From positions 124,001 to 188,000 of the forward strand of contig NZ_VRMG01000004.1 in the NCBI RefSeq assembly GCF_008040105.1: DNA of 64,000 bases, in the 5' to 3' direction. Origin of the DNA: Lacisediminihabitans profunda. GTDB lineage: Bacteria > Actinomycetota > Actinomycetes > Actinomycetales > Microbacteriaceae. A program made the translations under genes and the position numbers. The first letter of the stretch is position 1. Every line of letters starts with the position of its first letter. Under the pieces are notes generated by a model that was not told where the DNA came from, made no database searches, and saw only the letters and a program-made list of their open reading frames with translations. Positions 3,179-10,132 of the stretch are shown here, in pieces.

Positions 3179-3281
3179 GATCGCTCCGTTTCGTCGGGGT
3201 ACTCCCCCTAGCCTGCCACCGCGGGCTCTTCTCCGCAGGGCATCTGTGGAGAAGAAGTTATCCCCATTTGCCGCACACTCT

Positions 3282-3297
3282 TCGAACATACGTTCGA
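3282..3297. promoter_or_regulatory. LexA-binding SOS box upstream of the DUF222 HNH gene
   Basis: TCGAACATACGTTCGA is an exact match to the actinobacterial LexA consensus TCGAAC-N4-GTTCGA. It lies 19 bases before the HNH ATG, so LexA bound here would block its promoter. Known for the family: several 13E12/DUF222 genes of Mycobacterium tuberculosis carry LexA boxes. The inferred consequence is induction of the gene, and of anything transcribed downstream of it, by DNA damage. Confidence 0.85.
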
Positions 3298-3315
3298 TTA
3301 TGCGAAAATAGTGGC

Positions 3316-4527
3316 ATGGAAACGCTCACCGAGAGGCTCCGCAACGCCGCTGGCGACGTGGCGTTGCTCGGCGACGCGGCCGCCGATTTCGCCGCGCTCT
3401 CGAACGCGGAACTGCTCGCGGCGCAGGGCAAAATCACGGTGCTGCGGGCCTGCGCTGACAGGTTTGCGGCCCTGGCGGCGGGAGAGATCGCGCGCCGCTC
3501 GCATCATGACCTGGGGGAAGCCGGGCTTGCACGGGCAGGTGGGTATTCGTCGACGGAACAGATGATCCAATCCATCACCGGGGTCTCCCGGCAAGACGCG
3601 GTGAAGCTGATCGGCGTGGGCACCCTGATCGCGCAGTCCGAGGCCGCTGCCGACGAGTGGTCGCTTCCTGCTTTGCTTGCCGCAGCGCTCGAATCGGCGT
3701 CGATCTCCCTGGATGCGGTCGAGGCGATTCGACGTGGACTCGGCGACATCAATCCGGCCGTCGGCGCCGAGCAGATCGCGCTGGCCTGCGCGCGATTGAT
3801 CGAGACCTCGTCAGGCAAGACCCCCGAACAGATCTACCGCAATGCGCGTTCTGAGCGGGATGCCCTCGATGAGGACGGCATTGCGAGGCGCGAAATGGAG
3901 CGCCGCGACCTGAGATCGGTGCGGGCGTGGTGGGATGCCGCGGGAATGTACTGCGGCACCTGGCGCTTGCCGGCCGAGGAGGGCGTGATTCTCGCCAGCG
4001 CGTTCGACGATCTCCTCTCGCCGAGACGCGGCGGTCCACGGTTCGTGACCGAGGAAGGCGCGGCCCGGTCGACCGGCGTCTTTGCCGACGAGCGCACCAC
4101 CGAACAGGTCGCCGCCGACGCGCTAGTCGACATGGTCAGGGTCGCGGTGGATGCCGACCCGGGCACGCTCTTCGGCAGGCGCCGGCCCGCGGTACGGGTG
4201 ATCGTCACCGAAACGCAACTCCGGCAACGGGCCGGCCACGGCCACATCGAAGGCCACCCGGACCCGGTCTCATTCGCCACGATCGAACGGCATCTCTGCG
4301 ACACCGGGGCGATCTCCATCGGATTCGACGACGACGGCCAATGCGTGAACGTCGGACGCGACAAGAGGCTCTTCACCGAACGGCAACGCACCGGCATGGC
4401 CGTCCGAGACGGTGGATGCCTGGCTGAAGGATGCGATCGACCGCCCTCCCACTGCGAAGCTCACCACATCGACCAATGGGCACGTGACGGCGGCAAGACG
4501 AACATCGCAGACGGGACAAATTGTTAA
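3316..4527 (+). pseudogene. DUF222/HNH endonuclease gene, 5' part, interrupted by the integrated element
   Basis: First 399 codons of a 13E12-type HNH nuclease gene. The DUF222 region spans roughly residues 20-330, followed by the first part of the HNH motif (CEAHHIDQWARDGGKTNIADG). Right after the Asn segment the frame runs into foreign sequence and stops after DGTNC. The missing end (GILLCRRHHLWMHKSGY...) lies at 8543-8713 in the matching frame. The break falls between the Asn and the last His of HNH, so the fragment should lack nuclease activity. The start ATG follows the SOS box and gives METLTERLRN. Joined, the gene would encode 455 residues, normal for the family. Confidence 0.9.
4508..4514. 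other. attL core of the serine-recombinase element
   Basis: CAGACGG, identical to the repeat at the right end. The left side is HNH coding sequence; the right side is element DNA (GACAAATTGTTAA), which makes an imperfect dyad with the sequence beside the right core once the ends are joined. Confidence 0.85.
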
Positions 4528-4550
4528 TACGCCCTTACGCGAGATTCTTG

Positions 4551-4590
4551 CTCTTCACTGCTCTTCACTGCTCTTCACTGCTCGTCATTC
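4551..4590 (+). repeat. Three tandem CTCTTCACTG repeats plus a degenerate fourth
   Basis: Three perfect 10-bp copies of CTCTTCACTG are followed by a mutated copy (CTCGTCATTC), about 40 bases inside the left junction and 70 bases before the first cargo gene. Helically phased 10-bp repeats could be a protein-binding array such as recombinase accessory or replication iterons. That is inference; they could also be simple slippage. Confidence 0.75.
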
Positions 4591-4657
4591 ACGCATCGTC
4601 CAAGTGTCAACACCAACCGGTATGTACACTGAGGCAACTTGATGGAGAGGGCGTTCC

Positions 4658-5785
4658 GTGAACGGCGACGAAGAACTTGGTTTAGACAAGACCTGCTTCA
4701 TAGTTTCCCCGATCGGCTCAAAGCTCGATCCGGTCGGCAGTCCGGGCAGAAATCGGTACGAAGAATCTATATTCATGTGGGAAAACGTGTTCGAGCCTGC
4801 ATGTATTGCCTTCGGCCTCACACCAGTTCGAGCAGACAAGATCTCGAGCGCTGGTGAAATACCAGAACAAATTTTTACCTATCTACGAGATGCCGATGTG
4901 GTCATCGCCGACGTGAGCCACGCAAACCCGAATGTCATGTACGAGTTGGGCCTGCGACACACGCGCCCCGGAATCACATTGCAGGTCGGCGAGTACAATT
5001 TGCTTCCATTCGACGTGACAACTATCCGCACGATCCAATTCAATCGCACCGAATCGGGATTGATTGGCGCCAGGGATGACTTAGTTGACGCCTTGCGTGA
5101 TGGGTTGAAAGGCGGCGGGTCTCCGCTCCGCGTCACCACAATTTGGGGTGAATCGCCGTCGGCGTCGGCACGGGTCGCTGCGGATTCTGAAGCATCTATA
5201 AGCCCCGAAGATGACTGGCAGGATGACTCGCAACCCGGATCAATGGATATTCTCGCGGACGGTGAAACTGCGATCGAGCACATCAGCGAAGTGATGACTG
5301 AGGCGACAGCTCTAACTAGCCAAGTTGGCGAAATCATGACTGAGCACACGGTGCTTGTGAGTGAGTCAGACGCTCGACAGGGCGGCTTCGCGGGTCGGCT
5401 TCGCGTAGCTCGAAGTCTTAGTAACGCACTCAGCGAGCCAGCAGCGGAGCTGGAGAGCGCGTCAAACGCGTACTACGAGGACGCTCGGTCGCTCGACGCA
5501 ATGGTCGACTACGTCGTCACTCGGATTCTGACCGATGAGGAACTGACAGGAGAAGAGAAGGAAGGCCTAGTCGACTTCGCTCGAACCGTCCTCCGGCTGG
5601 TTGATGCCGCCGACGCGGGCGCGGTAGGCACGGCTCGTTTCCGAGAGACTGTGCGCGGACTCAGGAGTTTCTCAAAGGATCTGCGGCCGGTTGTCCAAGT
5701 TCTCGATCGAGCAACCTCTCGATTCCTGGAGGGTCTAGCAATGATGAGTGCCTGGCGAGACCGTCTCACTCAGGCCAGCGCGTGA
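4658..5785 (+). CDS. TIR/nucleoside 2-deoxyribosyltransferase-like protein (element cargo)
   Basis: 375-residue protein. Residues about 11-135 have the Rossmann-like core shared by nucleoside 2-deoxyribosyltransferases and TIR-like domains: CFIVSPIGS at the first strand, YEESIFMWENVFEPA, GLTPVRADKISSAGEIPEQI, then DADVVIADVSHANPNVMYELG. Glu96 of MYELG is where these folds keep the glycosidase nucleophile. Residues 170-375 are mostly charged helices without a recognised domain. Related domains cleave nucleotides or NAD, often in anti-phage systems, so a defence or element-maintenance role is plausible but unproven. The GTG start has a good GGAGAGG ribosome-binding site 7 bases upstream. Codon use is less GC-biased than in neighbouring chromosomal genes, fitting transfer. 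Confidence 0.65.
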   Translation: MNGDEELGLDKTCFIVSPIGSKLDPVGSPGRNRYEESIFMWENVFEPACIAFGLTPVRADKISSAGEIPEQIFTYLRDADVVIADVSHANPNVMYELGLRHTRPGITLQVGEYNLLPFDVTTIRTIQFNRTESGLIGARDDLVDALRDGLKGGGSPLRVTTIWGESPSASARVAADSEASISPEDDWQDDSQPGSMDILADGETAIEHISEVMTEATALTSQVGEIMTEHTVLVSESDARQGGFAGRLRVARSLSNALSEPAAELESASNAYYEDARSLDAMVDYVVTRILTDEELTGEEKEGLVDFARTVLRLVDAADAGAVGTARFRETVRGLRSFSKDLRPVVQVLDRATSRFLEGLAMMSAWRDRLTQASA

Positions 5786-5858
5786 GCGCTCCGAAGGTGC
5801 GCTCCTTTACTTGAATAAGCAACATAACTCGGGAGCCCGGCAGGGCGACCGAGGGCAA

Positions 5859-5904
5859 GGTTTCGGGCATCCGTAGGATGCTCGAAACCGCGGCAGCCGT
5901 TTTT
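5859..5904 (+). terminator. Probable terminator after the TIR/NDT-like gene
   Basis: A 14-bp stem with one mismatch (GGTTTCGGGCATCC / GGATGCTCGAAACC, loop GTA) is followed about 10 bases later by a run of five T. It lies 74 bases after the stop codon and would separate the cargo gene from the Rep transcript. Confidence 0.5.
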
Positions 5905-5989
5905 GCATTTCTGAATGACAACGGTGAAGTTATGCCGTATAACTGAGTCATACGCAAGGAATGCGAAAACACTCAGGAAAGTTAGAGGG

Positions 5990-6105
5990 ACCCCGAGATC
6001 GGGGTTTGAACGGCGTAAGGCCTGCGCCCCCGTTCAGAACATTCAACGGTTAGAGGCCTTCCCGGTAAGTACTCCGGGTACTGGCGCACCGTTCAGTCTC
6101 TAACC
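5990..6105. other. Hairpin-rich non-coding stretch before rep, candidate replication or transfer origin
   Basis: No gene fits 5786-6157. The stretch contains clustered inverted repeats: ACCCCGA/TCGGGGT (5990-6005), GAACGG/CCGTTC (6008-6035), and GGTTAGAG/CTCTAACC (6048-6105) enclosing CCCGG/CCGGG. CCGTTCAG occurs twice as a direct repeat. Rolling-circle Rep proteins nick hairpin-containing double-strand origins that often sit beside their own gene, so this is a candidate origin. No experimentally known nick site is recognised. Confidence 0.4.
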
Positions 6106-6157
6106 GGATCGACGTCTGTGTCAGTGGTCCACTGTCGGCGTCAACCTCAGGCCTTCC

Positions 6158-6937
6158 ATGCGTCCCTCGTCATTCCCATCGACCATCGCCTCACTGTCGC
6201 GCGCAGATGCCGGATGGCAATTTACCCTCTACCCCGATGCTCGGGAAGGCGGCGGGTCGTTCCAACCCTCCGTTCGGCGCGTGCCTACGTATGTGTCACG
6301 TGGCTACGCGCTCGATCCCGAGCGCTCAGCGTCCGAGGCAGGGCGACGCGCGCGAGCGAAGCTGCGCCGGTATTGCACCGCCAATCGGCTGAACCGACTG
6401 GGGACCCTCACCTTTGCCGGGGACGGTTGTCACGATCCTGCCGAGTTGCGCGCCTACCTGAGCGACTTCTTCCGCTCGCTCCGTCTTGCGTTGGGCGGCG
6501 CTGCGTTCCCGTACGTGTGGGTTCCGGAATGGCACCCGAAGGGCCATGGGCTGCACGTCCACTTCGCTGTCGGGCGGTTCATCCGCCGCTCCCTCATCGC
6601 AGAGGCGTGGGGGCACGGGTTCGTGCACATCAAGTTGCTCGGCGACTTGCCGGTCGGGTCCACGAACCTCTCCGAAGCGCGGCGCGCGGCAGGGTACTTG
6701 TCGAAGTACGTAGCGAAGTCGTTCGCGGAGCCGAGCGCGCGCGTTCTTGGCCTGCACCGGTACGACGTCGCTCAAGGGTTCCTTCCGCTCCCTGTGGCGC
6801 TCTCGGGCCGGTCGGCGGCAGATGTGCTGGCACAAGCATCCGATGCCTTGGGCAGCGTCCCGTCGGTTGAGTGGTCGTCCTCGTCGGTAGAGGACTGGCA
6901 GGGTCCACCCGCCATTTGGGCACAGTGGGGTGCCTGA
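6158..6937 (+). CDS. rep: HUH-family rolling-circle replication initiator (Rep)
   Basis: 259-residue Rep-type HUH endonuclease, expected to nick one strand at an origin and stay linked to DNA through tyrosine. Three family motifs are in order: motif 1 LGTLTF (81-86), motif 2 HGLHVHFAV with the metal-binding His133 and His135, and motif 3 GYLSKYVAK with candidate nucleophiles Tyr180 and Tyr184. Such Reps occur on actinobacterial rolling-circle plasmids and integrative elements. A mobilisation relaxase is the main alternative. The ATG start gives MRPSSFPSTI but has only a weak AGG upstream, so the exact start is uncertain. Its TGA overlaps the next ATG. Confidence 0.8.
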   Translation: MRPSSFPSTIASLSRADAGWQFTLYPDAREGGGSFQPSVRRVPTYVSRGYALDPERSASEAGRRARAKLRRYCTANRLNRLGTLTFAGDGCHDPAELRAYLSDFFRSLRLALGGAAFPYVWVPEWHPKGHGLHVHFAVGRFIRRSLIAEAWGHGFVHIKLLGDLPVGSTNLSEARRAAGYLSKYVAKSFAEPSARVLGLHRYDVAQGFLPLPVALSGRSAADVLAQASDALGSVPSVEWSSSSVEDWQGPPAIWAQWGA

Positions 6938-7113
6938 TGGCTGTTGATCGGGTGGCGTTGCGCGCATGGCTTGAGGCCTCGTGCGTGGCGCAGGGCGTCC
7001 CGGTGGTGGTGGCCGATCCGGGATTGCTAGCCCAAGTTGGGGTGCTCTTGAGGGGGCGGGGTGCTGCGGGGATGCCCCCGCAGGGGGCGGATCGCAGCAC
7101 CCGTCCCTCATAG
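6937..7113 (+). CDS. Small 58-residue protein coupled to rep
   Basis: The ATG overlaps the rep stop (TGATG), which argues for translational coupling. The product starts MAVDRVALRAWLEASCVAQG and continues VADPGLLAQVGVLLRG, a helical N-terminal half, and ends in a Gly/Pro-rich tail. No domain is recognised. Position next to Rep, and convergent with the recombinase (6-base overlap at the 3' ends), makes an accessory replication protein or a recombination directionality factor possible. Both are guesses. Confidence 0.55.
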   Translation: MAVDRVALRAWLEASCVAQGVPVVVADPGLLAQVGVLLRGRGAAGMPPQGADRSTRPS

Positions 7114-8514
7114 CCGCCAGCTGGGAACGATTCGGTTGGGATCTACTTCGCGTCGACCTCCGCCGGTTCCGGGGCTGATGGTCGCGAAGTCCAAGACGGC
7201 GGCGACTATTGCCGCCTGCCGGGTCAGGTTCAAGGAGTCCCACGACGTGCGAAGTTCGCCTCCGTGTCCGGCGATTCCGTCCAAGGTGTTCGTGCCGGTG
7301 ATCTGGCTCAGTTGCCGCTCGATGGTGTAGAGCTTGGCGTCGAGGATATCGCGTGCTTCTTTCCAATCGGCGGACGAGATCTCCTTCCGTGCCCACATTC
7401 CGGACAGCTCGAGCTTCTGCGCCTGGTCGGCTTGCAGTTCCTCCACCAACACCGAATGGCGTTCGTCAACGGCCGCGCGTCCCGCAAGAGCATCCGCGAT
7501 CTCCGGACTGTCGAGCCGCATCAGCACAGCTTCGGCGATCCACTCCTCGACTGGGGCGGCGACGATAGTCAGCCGTCCACAGCCGCCACCGTGGTCGGGT
7601 CCGGACATGCAGACATAGCGGCGGGTGTCGCGTCGCGCGGAACTGTAGAGCTTGTTCCCGCATTTGGAGCAGCGCAGCATTCCCGAGAGCAGGTAGCGAC
7701 GTGGCGCGCGGCGGTTGGATTGTGCCTTCCGCGCGAACGCCGCGACAAGTTGTTTGTGTTGCGCCGGCGTAATGATCGCCGGCCACACTGCCGTCGCGAC
7801 GATGACGCCATTGTGGGCACGAAGACCCGCTATCCGAGGATTCGTGAGGGTTTGACGCAGCGCTGTCGTCCGCCATGGCAAGCCCGCGACTGACGAGATC
7901 CCGTTGTCCTGCAGCCATGCTGTCAGTGACCCCAGTGACTCCCCGGCTAAATAGCGGGACGCGAGTTCACGAATGGCCACCGCTTCGGACTCGACCATGG
8001 TGAGTTGGTTCTTTTCGTAGCCGAATGGTCGAAGGTTGCCCCCGTTCGGCCTTCCAGCCTCTGCGATCTCCTGCGCTTTCCGCTTGAGCCGATCCGACTT
8101 TATGTCGGACTCGAGCGCCGCGAATGTGCCTAAGAGCCGCGCCATAGCGATACCTTCGCTGCTGGCAAGTCGTACTTCACCGCTTACGACTCCAAAGTCT
8201 TTGACCTTGGCCTGAGCCATCACATCGGCGAATTCCTCAAGCTCACGCGGCTGTCTCGTCAATCGATCCAACTTGTAGACGATCACGGCATCCCGTTGGC
8301 CCGCCGAAATGTCCTCGAGCATTCGCCGATATTCGGGCCGCTTCTTGCCGCGGTAGGCCGAAGCGTCATTGTCGACGTACTCCTCGGCAACAATCCAACC
8401 GTTATCAGCCGCATACTTTCGAGCATCGATGAGCTGCCGCTCAACACCCAATGCCTGTCCAGAGATGTCCTTGGAAATACGCGCATAGATAGCAGCTCGG
8501 ATGGGTAGTTTCAT
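7108..8514 (-). CDS. int: Large serine recombinase (site-specific integrase)
   Basis: 468-residue integrase that should insert and excise the element between attP and attB. The N-terminal resolvase domain has AAIYARISKD with the nucleophile Ser14, VIVYKLDRLTRQP, and GEVRLASSEGIAMARLLGTFAALES. The recombinase domain follows (PFGYE..., LTNPRIAGLRAHNG). A zinc ribbon has CSKCGNKLYSS and later YVCMSGPDHGGGCGR, then a helical stretch likely to form the coiled coil, and a C-terminal tail. The gene reads inward from the right junction, the usual place for the integrase of such elements. A separate directionality factor, if any, is not obvious. Confidence 0.93.
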   Translation of the reverse strand: MKLPIRAAIYARISKDISGQALGVERQLIDARKYAADNGWIVAEEYVDNDASAYRGKKRPEYRRMLEDISAGQRDAVIVYKLDRLTRQPRELEEFADVMAQAKVKDFGVVSGEVRLASSEGIAMARLLGTFAALESDIKSDRLKRKAQEIAEAGRPNGGNLRPFGYEKNQLTMVESEAVAIRELASRYLAGESLGSLTAWLQDNGISSVAGLPWRTTALRQTLTNPRIAGLRAHNGVIVATAVWPAIITPAQHKQLVAAFARKAQSNRRAPRRYLLSGMLRCSKCGNKLYSSARRDTRRYVCMSGPDHGGGCGRLTIVAAPVEEWIAEAVLMRLDSPEIADALAGRAAVDERHSVLVEELQADQAQKLELSGMWARKEISSADWKEARDILDAKLYTIERQLSQITGTNTLDGIAGHGGELRTSWDSLNLTRQAAIVAAVLDFATISPGTGGGRREVDPNRIVPSWRL

Positions 8515-8537
8515 GGGGTCACATTAGCAACTAGACC

Positions 8538-8544
8538 CAGACGG
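8538..8544. other. attR core of the serine-recombinase element
   Basis: CAGACGG, matching attL. Joining the two outer flanks gives an attB that reads AAC ATC GCA GAC GGC ATC CTT CTC in the HNH frame. Joining the two inner flanks gives an attP whose arms TTAGCAACTAGAC and (reverse strand) TTAACAATTTGTC agree at 9 of 13 positions. Confidence 0.85.
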
Positions 8545-8713
8545 CATCCTTCTCTGCCGCCGACATCACCTCTGGATGCACAAAAGTGGGTACCAAGTCA
8601 TCCGGGCGGGCGGTAACTACTACCTCAGACCGCCAGCGGCCAAAGACCCCGAGCAAACGTTGGTGCCCTTGCGCAGCCGCAACCCACTCATGAAGACGGT
8701 CAGGGCGAGCTAG
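8543..8713 (+). pseudogene. DUF222/HNH endonuclease gene, 3' part
   Basis: The last 56 codons of the interrupted HNH gene: GILLCRRHHLWMHKSGY and onward to a natural TAG. RRHH carries the final His of the HNH site. There is no start codon of its own directly at the junction, and it lies beyond an integrase gene of opposite strand, so it is probably silent. Its frame matches the 5' part exactly when the element is removed. Confidence 0.9.
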
Positions 8714-8820
8714 TGTTGCCCCACGCCCGTACAGGTCAGGAACGCTTTGCGGCAGGGCCGAGGGTGCTCCGCGCCGGGCATCCGGGGTCAGCGACGCGAT
8801 GGGCCGGCCAGGCGACGGCC

Positions 8821-8880
8821 AGCGGCGCGATGACCAGCGGCGCGAGGGCTAGCGGCGCGAGGGCTAGCGGCCCGGTGCCC
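8821..8880. repeat. Four 15-bp tandem repeats (AGCGGCGCGAKGRCY type)
   Basis: Units start at 8821, 8836, 8851 and 8866; the second and third are identical (AGCGGCGCGAGGGCT), and the first and fourth are degenerate. Related half-units (CAGCGACGCGAT) occur on both sides. The stretch 8714-8944 otherwise holds no supportable gene. Confidence 0.8.
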
Positions 8881-8944
8881 CGCACCCCGCTGACCAGCGA
8901 CGCGATATTCGGTAATGGGATGGCGAAGGACGATAACTCCTGCG

Positions 8945-10132
8945 CTAGGCGTGCGCGCGGACGGCGACGTCGCCGATCGTGAGTTCAGCATCGCCCTCGA
9001 GGATCTCGCCTATTCGATGCGCCTCCGGCTCGAGCTGGGCGAGCTGCCGGGCCCGCAGCGGCGAGAACGATTCGACCGTCACAACGATGCGACGTCCCGC
9101 GCGACGCTGGTGCCACACTCCGGCGACGACCCCATCGACGAGCAGTACAGGCAACACCCCGGCCTGGCCACGCCCGAGCGCACGCTCGGAGGCGCGCCCG
9201 GGATAGACCAGCGATCTCGGCTGGGAACCGACGACATACGGATCGAAGTAGGGCAAGAGCCGCACGCCGCGCGCGGGCGGGTCCACCGGCTCAGCGTCGC
9301 CGGCGTTGAGCCAGACCTCCGTTCCCTCAAGGCTCACCGGCTCGAGGCGGGCGCCCTCGAATACGTCGGAGGCCCACGCGAGAGGAGCGGCGAGCCATTG
9401 GGCGAAGTCCCGCGGGGACGCCGGACCGTAGGCGTGGAGGTACCGGCGCAGCAGCTCGACCTCCGGCTCGGGCCCGGTCTCGTCGATCAACGACGAGACC
9501 GGGGCCCGAGTGAAGGTCGTCTTGGGCCCGCGGTTGGGACCAAAGACGAGCACACCCGTGTACGACGCGGCCGCAATCGCCTGTCGCCAGCGCGGGGCCA
9601 TGCCACCGAACATCGGCACCACCGGGTCGGCCGCCCACGGGCCGGTGCGCCTGACCACCTCGGAATCGAGTTCATCGAGGGTCAGGCACGCGCTGTCGAG
9701 AACGGGCCCGACCGGGACCTCGAGAGTGGGCGCGCCTCGGTCGAGCGCGTCGGCGATCGCCCGAATCACCTCGGCGCTTTGCGCCGCGGACAGCCTCGCG
9801 CTCTCGGGGAGGCCGCTGCGGGCGGGAATGGCGGAGAGGGCGCCGTTCCAGATCGCGAGATCCGCCGCGGGGAGCCAGTGCACGGTACCTCGCGGCCCGT
9901 AGGTCTTCACGAGCGACCGGTCAGTCCAGAGGGCGCGCCGCACGTCGGTACGAGTGATAACGGGCATCCTCACACCGAGCTGCAACTCGGCGGCGGAGGC
10001 GATCTGGGCGTGCACGCCGCAGATCGCGGCGGCCGCCGCCGGGATCGCCGCAGGCGCGGACGCGGCGACGGGCACAGTGAGGAAATGGCGCGACATGCGC
10101 CGGCTCACGGCCTGACGCCATGTCCACCTCAT
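8945..10132 (-). CDS. AlkZ-like winged-helix DNA-binding protein
   Basis: 395-residue protein of the winged-helix DNA-binding family related to AlkZ/YcaQ DNA glycosylases. Seen: an N-terminal helical part (AAAICGVHAQIASAAELQLGVR), TDRSLVKTYGPRGTVHWLPAADL, GLPESARLSAAQSAEVI, and the late segments LLPYFDPYVVGSQPRSLVYPG and PVLLVDGVVAGVWHQRRAGRR. AlkZ-type enzymes excise bulky or cross-linked bases. Actinobacterial relatives are mostly uncharacterised, and whether this one keeps the catalytic QxQ-type residues cannot be confirmed here. It stands alone, convergent with the HNH remnant. Confidence 0.75.
   Translation of the reverse strand: MRWTWRQAVSRRMSRHFLTVPVAASAPAAIPAAAAAICGVHAQIASAAELQLGVRMPVITRTDVRRALWTDRSLVKTYGPRGTVHWLPAADLAIWNGALSAIPARSGLPESARLSAAQSAEVIRAIADALDRGAPTLEVPVGPVLDSACLTLDELDSEVVRRTGPWAADPVVPMFGGMAPRWRQAIAAASYTGVLVFGPNRGPKTTFTRAPVSSLIDETGPEPEVELLRRYLHAYGPASPRDFAQWLAAPLAWASDVFEGARLEPVSLEGTEVWLNAGDAEPVDPPARGVRLLPYFDPYVVGSQPRSLVYPGRASERALGRGQAGVLPVLLVDGVVAGVWHQRRAGRRIVVTVESFSPLRARQLAQLEPEAHRIGEILEGDAELTIGDVAVRAHA

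Follow-up and report, generated by a model that had tools for sequence, protein, structure and literature searches.

The window analysed here is a stretch of 64,000 nucleotides from Lacisediminihabitans profunda (contig NZ_VRMG01000004.1, positions 124,001 to 188,000 of the forward strand), and our subject is a small, probably mobile element that lies at positions 4508 to 8544 of the window inside a gene encoding a DUF222/HNH protein. The element carries a large serine integrase, a predicted rolling-circle replication initiator (Rep), one cargo protein and a small open reading frame (ORF), referred to below as SMALL. Its features and those of the interrupted gene are as follows.

Genes and features of the element

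3268..4514, + strand: N-terminal part of the interrupted DUF222/HNH gene (DUF222, E-value 3.6e-16; the listed ORF continues to a chance stop at 4527)
4508..4514, + strand: left copy of the 7-bp attachment (att) core CAGACGG
4515..4536, + strand: left att arm GACAAATTGTTAATACGCCCTT
4658..5785, + strand: cargo, a 375-aa protein with an N-terminal TIR/nucleoside-deoxyribosyltransferase-like domain (phrog_3634, 8.8e-32; PADLOC TIR effector, 1.2e-7)
5786..6157, + strand: non-coding stretch that separates the cargo from Rep, strongly structured (single-stranded DNA folding z-score -5.27; 0 of 100 shuffles equally stable)
5809..5831, + strand: putative double-strand origin or nick motif ACTTGAATAAGCAACATAACTCG, 23 bp
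6158..6937, + strand: Rep, an HUH initiator (HVHFA) with YxxxY
6937..7113, + strand: SMALL, a 58-aa ORF (conserved core of about 44 aa) that immediately follows Rep and is convergent to the integrase; candidate excision factor
7108..8514, - strand: large serine integrase, 468 aa (phrog_95, 8.4e-94)
8515..8537, + strand: right att arm GGGGTCACATTAGCAACTAGACC
8538..8544, + strand: right copy of the 7-bp att core CAGACGG
8545..8713, + strand: C-terminal part of the interrupted DUF222/HNH gene

The integrase contains Resolvase, Recombinase and Zn-ribbon domains, all three above the Pfam cut-off. Matches of the window cargo to Rcl/DNPH1 were only weak (E-value 0.46-1). No structural or conjugation family was detected in the scans of the element's proteins. 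The domain scans thus agree with the original prediction, which had described a serine recombinase, an HUH Rep and a TIR/nucleoside-deoxyribosyltransferase-like protein without structural or conjugation genes. The small ORF (6937-7113) and the 23-bp motif (5809-5831) are additions to that list of parts.

Precise insertion into a DUF222/HNH gene

When 4030 bp are removed, the flanks join into a single DUF222/HNH frame of 471 codons across the junction between ...GGKTNIADG and ILLCRRHHLWMH... A 7-bp repeat by itself is little proof of insertion; the insertion is called because the gene has homologues uninterrupted across the junction, one of them syntenic (in genome G200), and because related elements have equal ends. 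DUF222 genes intact across the junction are found in the same-genus genomes G191, G200, G202, G203 and G206 as well as elsewhere in the own genome, and the gene was matched at the DNA level in 7 of the 13 genomes of the genus search, own genome counted. The intact gene of G200 is probably the orthologous empty site, because it adjoins homologues of three neighbouring window genes (62-75% identical); its contig stops near residue 461 of 471, about ten residues short of the gene end.

Judged from these comparisons, the insertion is real and precise, and lies within the HNH motif of the DUF222 gene. The original prediction had set the junctions at base level, and both the core copies at 4508-4514 and 8538-8544 and the restored frame bear this out. 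It had also staked itself on the existence of an uninterrupted gene at this place and proposed a search for empty sites in related genomes; such sites are present, including the syntenic one in G200. Near a contig end in G206 (C63, locus L080), the similarity of a further DUF222 gene breaks off at the identical residue, which suggests one more insertion within the genus.

A widespread family with a common backbone

The Rep scan of a sample with one genome per species yielded 48 loci, 47 of them at 54-77% identity. By their titles, nearly all belong to Actinomycetota, with one labelled Bacillus and one Chloroflexi. The record labelled Bacillus sp. AZ43 (L034, unverified) carries an element and a DUF222 target of the actinobacterial kind, and is probably misnamed. 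A serine integrase, partial in some loci, is convergent to Rep in 46 of the 48; the exceptions are L048, which has no integrase and lies near a contig edge, and L050, a distant clostridial match. The integrase is split or truncated in L012, L023, L032, L040 and L045. The backbone in common consists of the 23-bp motif, Rep, SMALL and the convergent integrase; the cargo slot, at the opposite end, is variable, and the same gene order is found across many families. The own genome holds a second copy on contig C84, which is inserted in a different DUF222 gene (Rep 74% and integrase 66% identical) and carries an AAA/STAND-like cargo. The related elements for which the original prediction had proposed a search are therefore numerous; their distribution is wide but patchy, with the element present in 8 of the 199 genomes sampled from the family and in 9 of the 396 sampled from the phylum (own genome counted in each, some matches weak or fragmentary).

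Because the cores of serine integrases are short, searching for direct repeats did not reveal the left ends. They were assigned with a left-arm matrix, for which 14 ends defined by the DUF222 frame served as training set; the conserved 24-base arm (consensus GGCACAAGTTGTGAATACACCCCC) starts at 4513 in the window, two bases within the core. A left end was assigned in 38 of 49 loci and none in the other 11, with weak scores in L028, L030, L031, L043 and L046. The 36 elements with both ends are roughly 2.9-6.3 kb long, with a median of about 4.45 kb, the position of the right end being an estimate based on where the integrase starts.

According to the right flanks, inspected by eye in 46 loci, 24 elements interrupt DUF222 genes at the HNH motif and seven lie in the Walker A motif of a gene which we take to encode a TadA/CpaF-like ATPase (TadA-like below), while the remaining 15 show other sites, the opposite orientation (L012), or degenerate or ambiguous flanks. 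Rep and integrase distances are correlated (r 0.66 over 42 loci; 0 of 2000 permutations as high), and therefore the backbone tends to travel as a unit. In L012, the N-terminal half of the DUF222 gene (8340-9484) lies on the integrase side, the reverse of the usual arrangement, and no left end was found; this may reflect inverted integration or a later rearrangement. Element L017, which extends from its left end at 3395 to about 8326, occupies a site that resembles the DUF222 target only partly; close by, at about 9597-10070, is a DUF222-like gene whose HNH region is uninterrupted. The small contigs L020, L033 and L042 had no circular look when judged by eye.

Rep and the origin-like motif

The best Pfam family of Rep is PF23343 (REP_ORF2-G2P, 4e-16, 59.5 bits against a cut-off of 27.8). 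RepSA reached 12.3 bits only (cut-off 34), and no other Pfam family matched at E-values up to 0.1. The two HUH histidines and the two YxxxY tyrosines are invariant in 46 aligned Rep rows, and the structure model of Rep is confident (predicted local distance difference test, pLDDT, 87.9), with no sequence relative in PDB at E-values up to 1. In 46 of 49 loci (both own-genome copies counted), 15 or more of the 23 bases of the motif are identical; ACTTGAATAAGCAACATAACTCG is unique in the window at up to three mismatches, with no occurrence in shuffles, and the motif is, as we take it, similar to phiX174-type nick sites. By sequence, Rep thus combines what is expected of a two-tyrosine HUH initiator, namely HUH, YxxxY and a nearby origin-like conserved site. 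Because of the invariant residues, the confident model and the nick-site-like motif, we infer that the excised circle would be copied by rolling-circle replication (RCR). In L023, the origin motif is partly repeated in tandem about 315 bases ahead of Rep.

Relatives of Rep were not found in 72,556 plasmid records or 50,697 phage records (E-value 1e-5), nor by a pattern-based scan of viral contigs. A scan of viral sequences for the origin pattern returned one contig, and no Rep was recognised in the 2960 bases of it that were available. A RepSA search of the own genome gave no match, and its controls likewise gave none.

SMALL, a candidate directionality factor

SMALL was detected in 44 of the 47 loci L003-L049 at E-values up to 0.01 (missing in L028, L030 and L032). 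Its structure model consists of two helices with a low predicted template modelling score (pTM 0.49). In the family sample, the SMALL profile had 18 matches, of which 13 are near a serine integrase. Eight of the 18 are at Rep-bearing elements; of the other ten, five lie beside integrases about 28-37% identical to that of the window, all convergent, one has no integrase, and four fall inside frames of at least 700 aa and are probably chance matches. Of the 23 places in the phylum sample, 17 are near a serine integrase, and ten of these 17 neighbours are convergent; after subtraction of five places at Rep-bearing elements, the count is 12 of 18. The simplest reading of this neighbourhood is that SMALL is a directionality factor for excision.

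The cargo slot

The Pfam scan covered 38 cargo and two accessory proteins of relatives, plus the window cargo. Cargo was scanned in 33 of 38 delimited elements, with part of the ORFs of each, L016, L020, L021, L026 and L029 being left out. By our own reading, 18 of these 33 carry defence-type cargo (Pfam over cut-off; for the window, a PADLOC match). The clearer cases are AIPR (L010), CAP12 TIR (L019), SIR2 (L024, L027), a Thoeris pair of ThsB-TIR and ThsA-Macro (L028), a reverse transcriptase with retron type VII-A as best PADLOC match (L038), NACHT (L045), OLD-like TOPRIM (L046) and the TIR protein of the window element; the weaker ones are AAA_21 (L008, L032, L040), PIN_8 (L007), DUF4062 (L011), RelA/SpoT (L047) and AAA/STAND (L013, L049, L051). 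The cargo thus often looks like an anti-phage system of one or two genes. In a PADLOC control, which counts families and not proteins, 39 cargo proteins matched 226 families and 35 flanking proteins matched 76 (a single protein from each locus, picked by length and GC content at third codon positions); some flanking proteins are defence-like too, and the support from this control is weak.

Sequence comparison indicates that the slot is exchangeable on a shared backbone. The two Demequina elements L016 and L017 have backbones 89.8% identical over 2344 bp, and the two Microbacterium elements L014 and L015 are 86.0% identical over 2486 bp, some flank included; in both pairs, the cargo proteins are mutually dissimilar.

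Several cargo proteins resemble one another. Those of L003 (4355-5635), L006 (4381-5631) and L014 (4303-5634) share 27-39% identity, have no Pfam or PADLOC match and, by eye, a hydrophobic C-terminus; they are a candidate new defence family. Further related cargo pairs are L011/L025 and L015/L017. An accessory protein of 124-144 aa (43-54% identity) lies between cargo and Rep in L018 (5502-5885), L022 (5560-5934) and L024 (5482-5916), and the two copies scanned, those of L018 and L024, had no Pfam hit.

Proposed mechanism and alternative explanations

Taken as a whole, these features are best read as a minimal integrative rolling-circle element that would excise, copy itself, move with a helper and carry a protective cargo, to which we give a probability of roughly 0.7. 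The integrase would recombine attP with an attB in the DUF222 gene, other members using TadA-like ATPase genes, and SMALL would act as its directionality factor in excision. Rep would then nick the excised circle within the CTTGAA motif and initiate rolling-circle copying. Movement between cells would occur by hijacking a conjugative element, most likely one of the actinomycete integrative and conjugative elements (AICEs), because AICE-like loci hold the same integrase/SMALL module; this transfer is the least certain part of the explanation, and we would put it at even odds. Finally, the cargo, often an anti-phage-like system of one or two genes, may repay the host for the disrupted gene.

Several observations weigh against this explanation. 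The 23-bp motif is unrecognisable in three of 49 element loci (L039, L041, L049) and absent from two AICE-like loci (L054, L055), and a hairpin beside it was rejected as a general feature, being present in 13 of 46 only. Seven of the 17 integrase neighbours of SMALL in the phylum sample are in tandem, six of the 23 places lack an integrase in the surrounding 1.5 kb or so, and the figures for SMALL and integrase neighbourhood are raw counts. Of ten cargo proteins scanned singly with PADLOC, the nine without a Pfam hit gave nothing, and a convincing cargo ORF is absent in L026 and L029. When the targets are mapped on a quick tree of the integrases as three labels (DUF222, TadA and other, with L042 labelled DUF222 with some uncertainty), they take 12 changes against a shuffled mean of 17.4, with none of 200 shuffles as low; the target is therefore clustered yet often switched, and not fixed by clade.

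An alternative is a phage satellite similar to the phage-inducible chromosomal islands (PICI) or their minimalist counterparts (PICMI), in which the circle would depend on a helper phage for its induction, replication and packaging, and its cargo would guard the host against other phages. Small size, an integrase and defence-type cargo are compatible with it, and minimalist satellites are described (PMC10803314). The satellites of virulent phages in Vibrionaceae are likewise very small integrated elements, while no phage link was found for the present family. Rep lacks relatives among the phage records and viral contigs searched, capsid, terminase and packaging families are absent from the 40 Pfam-scanned proteins of relatives (part of the cargo ORFs), and the best phage relative of the integrase among the matches listed is 34% identical. 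A satellite is therefore unlikely.

A second alternative is a decayed AICE, a conjugative element that became stuck after the loss of its tra genes. The integrase and SMALL are common to tra-bearing loci, and the loci with split or truncated integrases are broken copies of the kind that decay would leave. However, the gene order is constant across many families, cargo is exchanged on similar backbones, the Pfam family of Rep differs from RepSA, and the origin-like motif was not found in the AICE-like loci, so that decay appears quite improbable. An insert with programmed excision like skin or fdxN, controlling the HNH nuclease by conditional departure, is hardly credible: its precise position inside the gene and a distant XisF match of the integrase (91.9 bits, far under the cut-off of 375) are outweighed by the syntenic insert-free site in the same genus, the element's own Rep and exchangeable cargo, the other target genes, and the further copy that the own genome carries in a paralogue.

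Relationship to known element classes

The minimal integrative rolling-circle element that we favour is linked to AICE-like loci by its integration module. Two plasmid loci, L054 and L055 (from Gordonia and Mycobacterium avium), encode integrases at about 49% identity, each beside SMALL, and also carry FtsK/SpoIIIE and a replication initiator (annotated on pS2b and recognised by similarity on pGRS1). In the quick tree, their integrases nest inside those of the elements; from this nesting and from SMALL it follows that the integration module is common to the elements and AICE-like loci. AICEs, including Faln2929 of Frankia, likewise combine an integrase and a rolling-circle Rep in Actinobacteria, and in Faln2929 the serine recombinase is convergent with tra and rep and disrupts a putative endonuclease gene (PMC3218068). 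In contrast, the present element is about 4 kb long, has a Rep that is not RepSA by Pfam, and carries a cargo slot in place of tra. An FtsK/SpoIIIE- or TraB-type Tra is lacking; no FtsK/SpoIIIE-type Tra domain was found in the window element or the 40 Pfam-scanned proteins of relatives at E-values up to 0.01. Because the Rep type differs and Tra is missing, the element is not a member of the AICEs. The own genome holds FtsK-domain genes, among which no helper was identified.

The element has its own integrase with precise att ends, and no type IV secretion system (T4SS) genes were found among the scanned proteins, as expected of an integrative and mobilisable element (IME). By analogy, its behaviour would come closest to that of the streptococcal IMEs that have an RCR-type Rep, with putative mobilisation. 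Streptococcal IMEs combine an integrase with an RCR-initiator-like protein and lack a T4SS; members with serine integrases disrupt genes, and some carry toxin-antitoxin or restriction-modification systems (PMC5357655, PMC5704250). They differ in belonging to another phylum, in their initiators (Rep_trans, Rep_2, PHA00330, Viral-Rep) and, in many, in a TcpA coupling protein, and a dedicated exchangeable defence slot is not mentioned in the relevant passages of these sources (PMC5357655, PMC5704250).

The loci with a DUF222 target invite one further comparison. REP13E12 encodes DUF222 proteins. The prophage phiRv1 of Mycobacterium tuberculosis, likened here by description only, uses a serine recombinase and is inserted in a REP13E12 repeat, and differs in that it is said to carry virus-like-particle genes (PMC9317374).

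The original prediction knew of no well-described class for this gene set, and no description of the family was found in the literature searched, which lay outside preprints and most subscription papers. Its view of an integrative replicon made of an integrase, a rolling-circle-type Rep and one cargo protein is supported, replication being deduced from the sequence. As to the suggestion of a satellite or plasmid-derived element, no relatives of Rep were found among phages, plasmids or viral contigs at the sensitivity applied, but the integrase and SMALL are common to AICE-like loci on two plasmids. The case for a class of its own is plausible. There is perhaps one chance in two that the family forms a distinct and widespread actinobacterial class of integrating rolling-circle replicons of about 4 kb, which have their own origin and act as swappable carriers of a single defence system, with SMALL as a new family of very small recombination directionality factors (RDFs) serving many serine integrases.

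According to a survey of Actinomycetota, the role of mobile elements in bacterial defence is seldom characterised outside Proteobacteria (PMC10482375). The present family offers a delimited and recognisable vehicle for defence-like genes in this phylum. Because the element ends are known, unannotated cargo, such as the L003/L006/L014 family, makes a short candidate list of defence systems, and if the class is indeed distinct, unknown ones could be sought directly in its cargo slot. Excision of Faln2929 was detected by nested PCR, with no identifiable RDF reported in the account of it (PMC3218068). If SMALL is a directionality factor, it might explain the excision of this serine-integrase AICE and could supply reversible integrases for actinobacterial genetics. 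SMALL also occurs in other serine-integrase elements (L128, L129 and L131), whose adjoining frames resemble, by eye, the helicase part of TraA/MobF-type relaxases.

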